Shown here one piece after another: positions 17,921-19,133 of a stretch of DNA of 37,830 nucleotides. The stretch's first letter is position 1, and every line of letters starts with the position of its first letter. This DNA is from Verrucomicrobiota bacterium (lineage in GTDB: Bacteria > Bacteroidota > Bacteroidia > Flavobacteriales_E > Vicingaceae), in contig PAVT01000020.1 in assembly GCA_002713165.1 (NCBI GenBank), positions 1-37,830 of the forward strand, in the 5' to 3' direction. The notes under the pieces were generated by a model that worked only from the letters and a program-made list of their open reading frames with translations, was not told where the DNA came from and did not search any database. A program made the position numbers and the translations under genes.

Positions 17921-18009
17921 GGAGTAAAATTTAATTAGGTCCATAAAATTACGCAAAACTGTTCAGGGGGTATGGTTAAAATAGAATATTAAGCAGATGT
18001 GATTAAGCA

Positions 18010-18408
18010 TCATTTCGCTAAGTTTTCTTTCCATGCGTCATATCCACCCTTTAAGTCAATTACCTCCTTAAATCCAGCATCCATCAATATTTTTGAAGCT
18101 TTATTGCTTCTACCTCCTTTTGCGCAGAATACGAATACTGTTTTATTCTTATCCAAGCTGCTCAATTTCGATGAAAAAGTTCCGTCGAGTATGTTATAGT
18201 TTATTGCCCCATCAATTGAACCGCCTTTAAATTCATTAGCCGTCCTTACATCAATCAATTGTGCTTTATCGGTTGCACTCAGTTTGGATTTAAATTCAAT
18301 TGCTGAAAGCAATTGAATAGAGGGGTCTTTAGTCTGGGCATTGCTGCAAGAAAAAATAAAATTAAGCAGTATGAATAAAAAAAAGTATTGATTTACATTG
18401 CGTTCCAT
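18010..18408 (-). CDS. Rhodanese-like lipoprotein
   Basis: A 132-residue rhodanese domain behind a lipoprotein signal: the hydrophobic segment ends NFIFSC with C21 as the likely lipidated residue, so it should sit in the periplasm on a membrane. The domain has LIDVRTANEF and the active-site loop C95-AKGGRS, a six-residue loop typical of sulfurtransferases, and ends LKGGYDAW. It is third in the DUF983 - rhodanese - rhodanese operon. Its ATG (18408) overlaps the end of the preceding rhodanese gene by 16 bases. It looks like a tandem-duplication partner of that gene with an added export signal. The sulfur donor and acceptor are unknown. Confidence 0.9.
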   Translation of the reverse strand: MERNVNQYFFLFILLNFIFSCSNAQTKDPSIQLLSAIEFKSKLSATDKAQLIDVRTANEFKGGSIDGAINYNILDGTFSSKLSSLDKNKTVFVFCAKGGRSNKASKILMDAGFKEVIDLKGGYDAWKENLAK

Positions 18409-18686
18409 GCTATAATCCCTCCTTCTAAGTTATAAGTATCAAATCCATTCTTAGCCATAAATTGACAGGCGGTAGCACTCCTTCCCCCACTTCTACAGAA
18501 AACGAGGTATTTTTTTGCTTTGTCCAATGTTTCGATCTTAGTGGGAAAAGATGGGTCCATAATGTTAATGTTGAGTGAGCCTTCAATCACTCCTTCTATC
18601 TCCTCCTCAGGAGTTCGTACGTCGATGACAAGCGTATTTTCCTCATCCAACATGTTTTTAAATTCTTCAGGGCTCAGATTTTTCAT
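18393..18686 (-). CDS. Cytoplasmic rhodanese-domain protein
   Basis: A 97-residue stand-alone rhodanese domain without a signal peptide, starting MKNLSPEEFK. It has VIDVRTPEEE, the active-site loop C64-RSGGRS and the closing LEGGIIAW, all as in single-domain GlpE/PspE-type sulfurtransferases. The frame opens 20 codons earlier, but those residues overlap the DUF983 gene and do not resemble the family, so ATG 18686 is chosen. That start overlaps the end of the DUF983 gene by 20 bases, and its stop overlaps the next gene by 16 bases, so the three genes are tightly coupled. Confidence 0.9.
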   Translation of the reverse strand: MKNLSPEEFKNMLDEENTLVIDVRTPEEEIEGVIEGSLNINIMDPSFPTKIETLDKAKKYLVFCRSGGRSATACQFMAKNGFDTYNLEGGIIAWNAM

Positions 18687-19065
18687 TTTCAGTTGTGGGT
18701 TTATAGTGTAAAAAAAAGTTTGCCCATGTAATTTTAGACAATGCATAATACAAAGGCGTTAACAGGATTAAGAACGAAGCCACCAAAATAATAAAATTCA
18801 CAAATTCCATTTTGATACCAAGTATGTACTTCGCTAGAATAAACGTTACTATATGAGTCACGCTCAAGGCGTATGAAACGTACATAGCACCATAGTAAAA
18901 TCCAGGTTCCAAGTAAAGTCTTCTATTGCATTTTGTGCATTTTTCATAGGATCTAGAAAGATGTTTGAAGTCATAGGGATTTCTAGATTTAAAAAACTCT
19001 CCCTCATGACAATGCGGACATTTAAAATGAATAATGCTGTACAATTTGCTTCCCTTTTTGAGCAT
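18667..19065 (-). CDS. DUF983 membrane protein with zinc-ribbon motif
   Basis: A 132-residue protein with two CxxC pairs (FKCPHCHEG near residue 15 and CTKCNRR near residue 43), which should form a small zinc ribbon, followed by the conserved LEPGFYYGAMYVSYAL and two membrane helices (about 63-82 and 88-110). This is the DUF983 family, whose function is not established. It is first in the operon with two rhodaneses and is preceded by a good promoter at 19082-19109. The pairing of a Cys-rich membrane protein with sulfurtransferases suggests, but does not prove, a role in sulfur or metal handling. Confidence 0.88.
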   Translation of the reverse strand: MLKKGSKLYSIIHFKCPHCHEGEFFKSRNPYDFKHLSRSYEKCTKCNRRLYLEPGFYYGAMYVSYALSVTHIVTFILAKYILGIKMEFVNFIILVASFLILLTPLYYALSKITWANFFLHYKPTTENEKSEP

Positions 19066-19081
19066 AAGCTATTTCTAGATT

Positions 19082-19109
19082 CAAAGTTAATCAATGTGGT
19101 GAAGCACAA
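19082..19109 (-). promoter_or_regulatory. Promoter of the DUF983-rhodanese operon
   Basis: On the minus strand TTG (19107-19109) and TAACTTTG (19082-19089) are separated by 17 bases, fitting the Bacteroidota/Flavobacterium pattern TTG-N17-23-TAnnTTTG. The -7 element lies 16 bases before the ATG at 19065. It is the only promoter in the window where both elements match. The -33 element lies within one arm of the inverted repeat at 19107-19133. Confidence 0.6.
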
Positions 19110-19133
19110 TGCAACCTGTGTTACATTGCATTG
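19107..19133. repeat. 8-bp perfect inverted repeat over the -33 element (possible operator)
   Basis: CAATGCAA (19107-19114) and TTGCATTG (19126-19133) are exact reverse complements with an 11-base spacer. No T run follows on either strand, so it is a poor terminator. Its left arm contains the -33 TTG of the DUF983-rhodanese promoter, a position where a bound regulator would block or recruit polymerase. It also lies 50 bases past the stop of the PhoH gene. Confidence 0.45.

Follow-up and report, generated by a model that had tools for sequence, protein, structure and literature searches.

In Escherichia coli two rhodaneses, GlpE in the cytoplasm and PspE in the periplasm, are reported to account for 95% of thiosulfate sulfurtransferase activity (PMC3733917). 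In Acinetobacter baumannii SQR, the persulfide dioxygenase (PDO) PDO1 and TauE rise together under sulfide (PMC8148161), YedE1E2 imports zero-valent sulfur which is then oxidised by PDO (PMC10812762), and fusions of PDO with rhodanese are reported to be widespread in Bacteroidota (PMC7887784). Here we describe a three-gene operon, hereafter the trio, coding for a DUF983-like membrane protein, a cytoplasmic rhodanese and a lipoprotein rhodanese, which lies in a 37,830-nucleotide stretch of DNA (the window) from a bacterium of the family Vicingaceae. It resembles GlpE and PspE in having one single-domain rhodanese per side of the inner membrane, but the E. coli genes are in separate operons and have no DUF983, and the word “lipoprotein” is absent from the accessible text of PMC3733917. 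The regulon proposed for relatives of the window's genome contains the same kind of enzyme set as the Staphylococcus aureus cst operon (under CstR) and the PDO1-SQR-TauE sulfide response of A. baumannii, but the genes of the trio are not grouped with those for SQR and PDO. YeeE/YedE-type half-proteins of the relatives carry the same promoter site and are found near DUF983 in Runella and Crocinitomix, while no YeeE-type gene was found in the window's assembly. DUF983 proteins of cytochrome oxidase (COX) operons belong to the same Pfam family and share a ribbon and two helices, but their clade and context differ from those of the trio. Among the titles and abstract openings listed in the literature searches, a scope which most subscription journals fall outside, none dealt with the trio or with a Crp/Fnr sulfide regulon. 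The earlier sequence-only reading of this DNA knew of no described system of this form; within that literature this is right for the trio, but the pathway pointed to is of a known kind.

We propose, with a probability of about 0.58, that Flavobacteriales have a sulfane-sulfur regulon under Crp/Fnr control and that the trio is one of its transcription units. Binding of the site by a Crp-like protein, the signal sensed, the enzymatic steps, the localisation of the products and the role of DUF983 are inferred as follows. A rise of reactive sulfur (sulfide, persulfide, polysulfide or thiosulfate) would lead a Crp/Fnr regulator with conserved cysteines to bind GTAAC-N4-GTTAC at about -41 and to activate SQR, YeeE/YedE1-E2, persulfide dioxygenase, TauE/SafE and the trio. 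SQR would convert sulfide to sulfane sulfur, YeeE/YedE1-E2 would import zero-valent sulfur or thiosulfate, persulfide dioxygenase would carry out oxidation to sulfite and TauE/SafE would export the sulfite. The lipoprotein rhodanese would handle sulfane sulfur outside the inner membrane and the cytoplasmic rhodanese would hand it to thiols or to the dioxygenase. The DUF983-like protein would be a zinc ribbon anchored in the membrane and facing the cytoplasm. Most likely it would assist the cytoplasmic rhodanese, either as a docking partner or as one that responds to metal or persulfide.

What was computed here are the genes, their conservation, the site, its spacing, and the presence of the site beside SQR-, PDO-, TauE- and YeeE-type genes in relatives. 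The three genes, transcribed in the order DUF983-like protein, cytoplasmic rhodanese, lipoprotein rhodanese with overlaps of 20 and 16 bases, are those which the sequence-only reading had described. The features of the locus are:

19111..19124, minus strand: palindromic site GTAACACAGGTTGC, matching GTAAC-N4-GTTAC at 9 of 10 positions, 59 bp upstream of the DUF983 start
19082..19089, minus strand: TAACTTTG, a match to TAnnTTTG, 28.5 bp from the site centre and 24 bp upstream of the start codon
18667..19065, minus strand: DUF983-like protein, 132 aa, with N-terminal zinc-ribbon, EPGFYxGAMYVxY signature and two predicted membrane helices
18928..19020, minus strand: CPxC...CxxC ribbon of the DUF983-like protein, Cys invariant in the alignment
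18393..18686, minus strand: cytoplasmic single-domain rhodanese, 97 aa, active loop CRSGGRS at residues 64-70 (18477-18497)
18010..18408, minus strand: lipoprotein rhodanese, 132 aa, signal 18349-18408, lipobox Cys21 at 18346-18348 by motif only
18106..18126, minus strand: active loop CAKGGRS of the lipoprotein rhodanese, residues 95-101
17957..18009, minus strand: 53-base gap, the slot of a fourth gene (c13) in 9 of 12 trio genomes, too small for c13 here

Two observations, the shared promoter site and the gene neighbours in relatives, support a sulfur function with a rhodanese on each side of the membrane, as the sequence-only reading had suggested. Among the 107 of 114 rows of the DUF983 tree with enough upstream sequence for the scan, a site matching at no fewer than 9 of 10 positions was found upstream of DUF983 in 10 of 12 trio loci, 11 of 17 loci with a neighbouring Crp gene, 7 of 11 sulfur islands and 2 of 5 duo loci (a shorter version of the trio, see below). 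Elsewhere it was present in 2 of 18 ABC-F loci, 2 of 42 other loci and neither of the two COX loci. As a control, such a site precedes 28 of 1388 other open reading frames (ORFs) of the same loci, a value inflated by divergent neighbours which share the site (e.g. the DnaK gene beside several DUF983 genes). The sequence TAnnTTTG, which we take to be the Bacteroidota -7 box, is present in 24 of 34 site-bearing promoters, and in all 24 it lies 28.5-30.5 bp from the site centre. The window promoter, with its 9/10 palindrome and 28.5 bp spacing, belongs to this group. If our assumed box consensus holds, the site would be situated near -41, where class II activators bind. A sigma-70 scan gave 12 matches against 5.3 expected, two on the gene strand and none at the operon start.

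The same site also lies near sulfur genes in the relatives that carry the trio. The trio genomes together contain 49 exact copies of TGTAAC-N4-GTTAC. Of these, 17 are no more than 3 kb from a PDO, SQR or DUF983 gene, where 0.37 would be expected if relatedness is ignored, and 15 of the 17 are at PDO or SQR. The arrangement Crp-site-TauE-PDO was found in eight trio genomes (L282, L283, L285-L290); in two of the trio genomes, G021 and G030, this arrangement has a 9/10 site and no exact one. The site precedes a YeeE-YeeE pair in four loci (L282, L283, L288 and L297) and SQR in four loci of three genomes (L284, L291-L293), L291 and L292 being from one genome. The latter two (G021, contigs C10 and C15) show the same SQR region in opposite orientation and are probably an assembly duplicate. 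In loci fetched by Crp similarity alone, independently of the site, it was found before TauE in six of eight, again at 9/10 or better. A Crp homologue is present in all eight trio relatives searched and, by locus maps, in the remaining three; 41 of 46 Crp-like proteins have C-x5-C, and of the five without it three belong to another type of Crp, the second Cys of the other two (G021, G030) being displaced by one position. The site was also seen before an apparent TolC-membrane fusion-RND efflux operon, named by eye, in three trio genomes (L297, L300, L301).

The three-gene order is conserved. A survey of 60 genomes, the window's own (G000) included, gave 52 with a DUF983 match at 55 places, of which 48 were examined (one place each was left out in G023, G028, G031, G032, G033, G034 and G035). 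Trio order is present in 12 of the 48 (G000, G001, G004, G006, G007, G011, G014, G018, G021, G026, G030 and G036), with inter-gene spacing from -25 to +16 bases. Because it is kept in 12 genomes of seven genera, all of one family, the order is more than chance, and a restriction to this strain, which would have refuted the sequence-only reading, was not observed. Eight of the 80 named loci were taken up by tblastn instead of the ORF caller, and L042 and L087 were labelled trio by hand since DUF983 had been dropped by the overlap filter. Spacing for the window and L042 was measured from an inner Met, the ORF caller having started both frames too early: the frame of the window's cytoplasmic rhodanese is open to 18746, beyond the chosen start at 18686. 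In 10 of 11 relatives the ORF caller placed this start at the matching Met or one codon earlier, and the 11th also has Met at the matching position. The chromosomal place is inherited too, with PhoH before and an S8 peptidase after the trio in most of the 12; in the window PhoH lies upstream with a gap of 117 bases and the S8 peptidase downstream carries a type IX sorting domain. The nearest records to the window DUF983 are from Flavobacteriales, including Vicingaceae and Acidiluteibacter.

To place the trio among its relatives, 125 DUF983 sequences were reduced to 114 rows by merging identical ones and a tree was made. The 12 trio sequences form one clade (support 99/96), next to the Acidiluteibacter form (95/95) and inside a clade of 71 rows (99/95), which comprises 17 rows with Crp/Fnr next door, 13 sulfur islands, 12 trio, 5 duo, 1 ABC-F and 23 others. 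By locus labels a rhodanese lies within 4.5 kb in 30 of the 71 rows; the expected share is 2.4%, calculated from 502 domains counted in about 189.7 Mb of genome sequence. In the Crocinitomix locus L104 the row is DUF983, Crp, Usp, YeeE, YeeE, TauE, cytoplasmic rhodanese, lipoprotein rhodanese and c13; L092 and L095 have Crp, DUF983, thioredoxin, rhodanese and a 62-aa membrane protein, followed by a lipoprotein rhodanese-thioredoxin fusion, rhodanese, TauE and PDO; and in Runella L152 the order is YeeE, YeeE, DUF983, SQR. Other DUF983 contexts were also observed. A group that includes L118, L131 and L138 has no sulfur markers, and in it the DUF983 gene shares 20-35 bases with a Crp/Fnr gene whose product bears Cys; L118 carries the same palindromic site, and genes downstream in L131 and L138 resemble those for a sulfotransferase and for a phosphatase-type protein of 810-825 aa. 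Another group is divergent from an ABC-F ATPase gene (L049-L052, L057, L058, L061, L063, L065, L067-L069, L073, L074), and many of its members overlap an alpha/beta hydrolase-like gene.

The fourth gene, c13, codes for a hydrophobic protein of about 70-84 aa with invariant Pro-His, Trp and Asp and with no Pfam or NCBIfam match. Its model is mostly helical, with a predicted local distance difference test (pLDDT) of 84.5 and a predicted template modelling (pTM) score of 0.62. It was found in 39 of 295 genomes of the class, although the match in one of them (G127) is weak and interrupted by stops. Leaving aside G000 and the genomes with trio or duo, there are 33 c13 places, and rhodanese, SQR, PDO, TauE or YeeE genes are near c13 in 14 of the 28 examined; seven of the other 14 are from one genus. 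Ten of the 28 loci covered only about 1.5 kb per side, seven of them from genus g25, and absence of a gene there means little. The duo, consisting of DUF983, lipoprotein rhodanese and c13, is present in G009, G019 and G015 and in L100 and L111, and is preceded by an ArsR-type regulator in G009 and G019. Acidiluteibacter ferrifornacis S-15, a cultured bacterium, carries a smaller version of the operon (L089) with the genes ArsR, DUF983, lipoprotein rhodanese, fatty-acid hydroxylase and c13. The window's genome has a lone c13 copy on contig C48 (17485-17688, L192), away from the trio and from the searched sulfur markers. A fatty-acid hydroxylase-type gene adjoins c13, rhodanese or YeeE in L045, L046, L168, L169, L172, L177, L180, L183, L186, L282, L283 and L297; it was assigned by PF04116 in L045 and by similarity or eye in the others. 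It is possible, although on balance we doubt it, that an undescribed cysteine-sensing Crp/Fnr activator governs the regulon and that DUF983 and c13 bring the outer and the inner rhodanese together in a complex for sulfur transfer at the membrane. Bacterial sulfide tolerance would then have two new components, DUF983 and c13.

A number of results weigh against the proposed regulon. The weakest point is the genome to which the window belongs as contig C20 (1.77-Mb assembly, 66.7% complete): searches of it gave no regulator, PDO, SQR or YeeE, and therefore the link to the regulon rests on the relatives, although these genes may lie in the missing third. The 15-base exact pattern has no match in that genome either, and the window site is only 9/10. 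The window has one further match of 9/10, located within a gene; 0.60 matches were expected, and 12 of 100 shuffles reach the two observed. Genome-wide the exact pattern gave 58 rows and its reversed control 57, so many of the other exact sites are probably chance, and the loci of the site map were mostly chosen for holding the site, which makes their counts partly circular. A TTG -33 element at the usual spacing is present in two of 107 DUF983 upstream regions, and the window is one of the two; the rarity of this element suits an activator-dependent promoter and proves nothing. A separate set of relatives gave no match to it. The DUF983 genes of the Acidiluteibacter-type loci L045 and L046 have no 9/10 site, and their neighbouring regulator is of ArsR type, not Crp. 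Furthermore, in 17 of the 71 clade rows the neighbour of DUF983 is a Crp gene and rhodaneses are absent from the surrounding 4.5 kb, and 16 of these 17 are without the searched sulfur markers (the exception is L091). Proximity of DUF983 and rhodanese is strong in the 71-row clade and weak outside it, where 5 of 40 DUF983 loci of the class, drawn from the upper half of 126 listed places, have a rhodanese within 4.5 kb, one on the other strand. The names SQR, PDO and TsuA/YeeE are based on matches below NCBIfam cut-offs or on domain make-up; in L104 only the TauE, Sulf_transp, Crp and rhodanese domains pass Pfam cut-offs. PDO is present in 11 of 11 trio relatives, but it is common anyway (49 of 60 genomes), and SQR, in 5 of 11 trio relatives vs 10 of 49 other genomes, is too weak to use. 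The trio is not an operon of the SQR-PDO type: no PDO lies within 4.5 kb of it, and trio relatives have PDO and SQR on contigs other than that of the trio, except for G030, where the distance is 69 kb.

Both window rhodaneses score far above the cut-off of Pfam rhodanese (PF00581), with 73.7 and 68.4 bits against 22.2. The C-x-x-G-x-R-S loop with the catalytic Cys is kept in both and in all 12 trio pairs, and the second rhodanese has, by motif, a hydrophobic start ending in a lipobox-type Cys in 12 of 12 trio genomes; the window lipobox IFSC, with Phe at -2, is a loose fit. The cytoplasmic and lipoprotein rhodaneses form two clades (support 100/98 and 99/91). The nearest sequences to each clade are island or duo rhodaneses that share its location type, with wider-grouping support of only 93/79 for the cytoplasmic and 90/87 for the lipoprotein form. 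On these groupings a recent tandem duplication of the two was rejected.

The name DUF983-like was chosen because the window protein falls under the cut-off of PF06170 (19.9 bits vs 22.6, E 0.00096). Subfamily members L045 (24.3 bits) and L104 (24.6 bits) pass it and L034 (20.8) fails. The window protein and annotated DUF983 proteins have in common the four-Cys ribbon, the EPGF signature and two helices, and Cys16, 19, 43 and 46 are invariant across 49 aligned sequences, that of the window included. The AlphaFold model (pLDDT 91.6) consists of the ribbon and long helices 54-82 and 88-118, joined by a loop of about five residues. A Foldseek search with this model gave 19 matches at E up to 10, none at or below 0.001, and VIA-align gave no significant structural match (best Z 3.6, root-mean-square deviation 8.6 over 84 residues); neither result decides anything.

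It could be argued that DUF983 serves the respiratory chain, in assembly or protection of cytochrome oxidase, and that the rhodaneses ride along as sulfide poisons the oxidase. DUF983 ends apparent COX clusters, with genes named by eye, in L072 (7763-8360) and L077 (6965-7626), and it is called COX4-like in alphaproteobacterial COX operons in the accessible part of PMC4013037. However, L072 and L077 fall outside the 71-row clade, on long branches of unsure placement, and no trio neighbour is found in their COX clusters. We consider this reading unlikely, and for the window DUF983, of a different clade and not located among COX genes, a COX link was dismissed. In L072 and L077 DUF983 also adjoins a small secreted-looking protein with a CxxC motif.

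The sequence-only reading had suggested a sulfur relay, in which the DUF983-like protein itself would carry sulfur or electrons through the membrane between the outer and inner rhodanese. This would suit a tightly packed operon in 12 genomes whose three products include a Cys-rich membrane protein and a rhodanese for each side. However, all four Cys are in one N-terminal ribbon, and there is no Cys in the helices or the loop of the window protein (loop-region Cys occur in 7 of 49 DUF983 sequences). The mean number of basic residues is 8.8 for the N part, 3.6 for the C part and 0.4 for the loop region, by which both ends, and hence all four Cys, are predicted to be on the cytoplasmic side. In addition, L045-L047, L100 and L111 have DUF983 and a lipoprotein rhodanese with no cytoplasmic rhodanese adjoining. 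Cys placement and charge led us to reject the relay through DUF983, which we regard as improbable.

An envelope redox role, unrelated to sulfide breakdown, would have the lipoprotein rhodanese aid disulfide formation or repair like E. coli PspE, a periplasmic rhodanese which restores disulfide formation with DsbC (PMC3733917, accessible part). Thioredoxin domains are indeed adjacent or fused to rhodaneses in L092 and its neighbours, but a search with thioredoxin queries, which did not extend to Dsb proteins, gave no match within 4.5 kb of the trio, and the site points to SQR, PDO and TauE. We regard this role as very unlikely. We hold it least probable that the operon is conserved but functionally loose, with DUF983 a housekeeping gene and two rhodaneses fixed by ancestry: the inherited chromosomal place and the 35 of 40 sampled class DUF983 genes without a rhodanese near would agree with it, but the narrow spacing kept in 12 genomes, the recombination of the same parts in other families and the shared site speak against it.

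If the trio does belong to a Crp/Fnr-controlled sulfane-sulfur regulon, it would extend the set of SQR, PDO, TauE and YedE-type proteins by two carriers, one in the envelope and one in the cytoplasm, and by a zinc ribbon in the membrane. This gives a testable role to DUF983, a domain of unknown function, and to the unnamed small membrane family c13. It also suggests that Bacteroidota have an activator of the Crp/Fnr type which may respond to sulfur, and the site makes the regulon directly testable.
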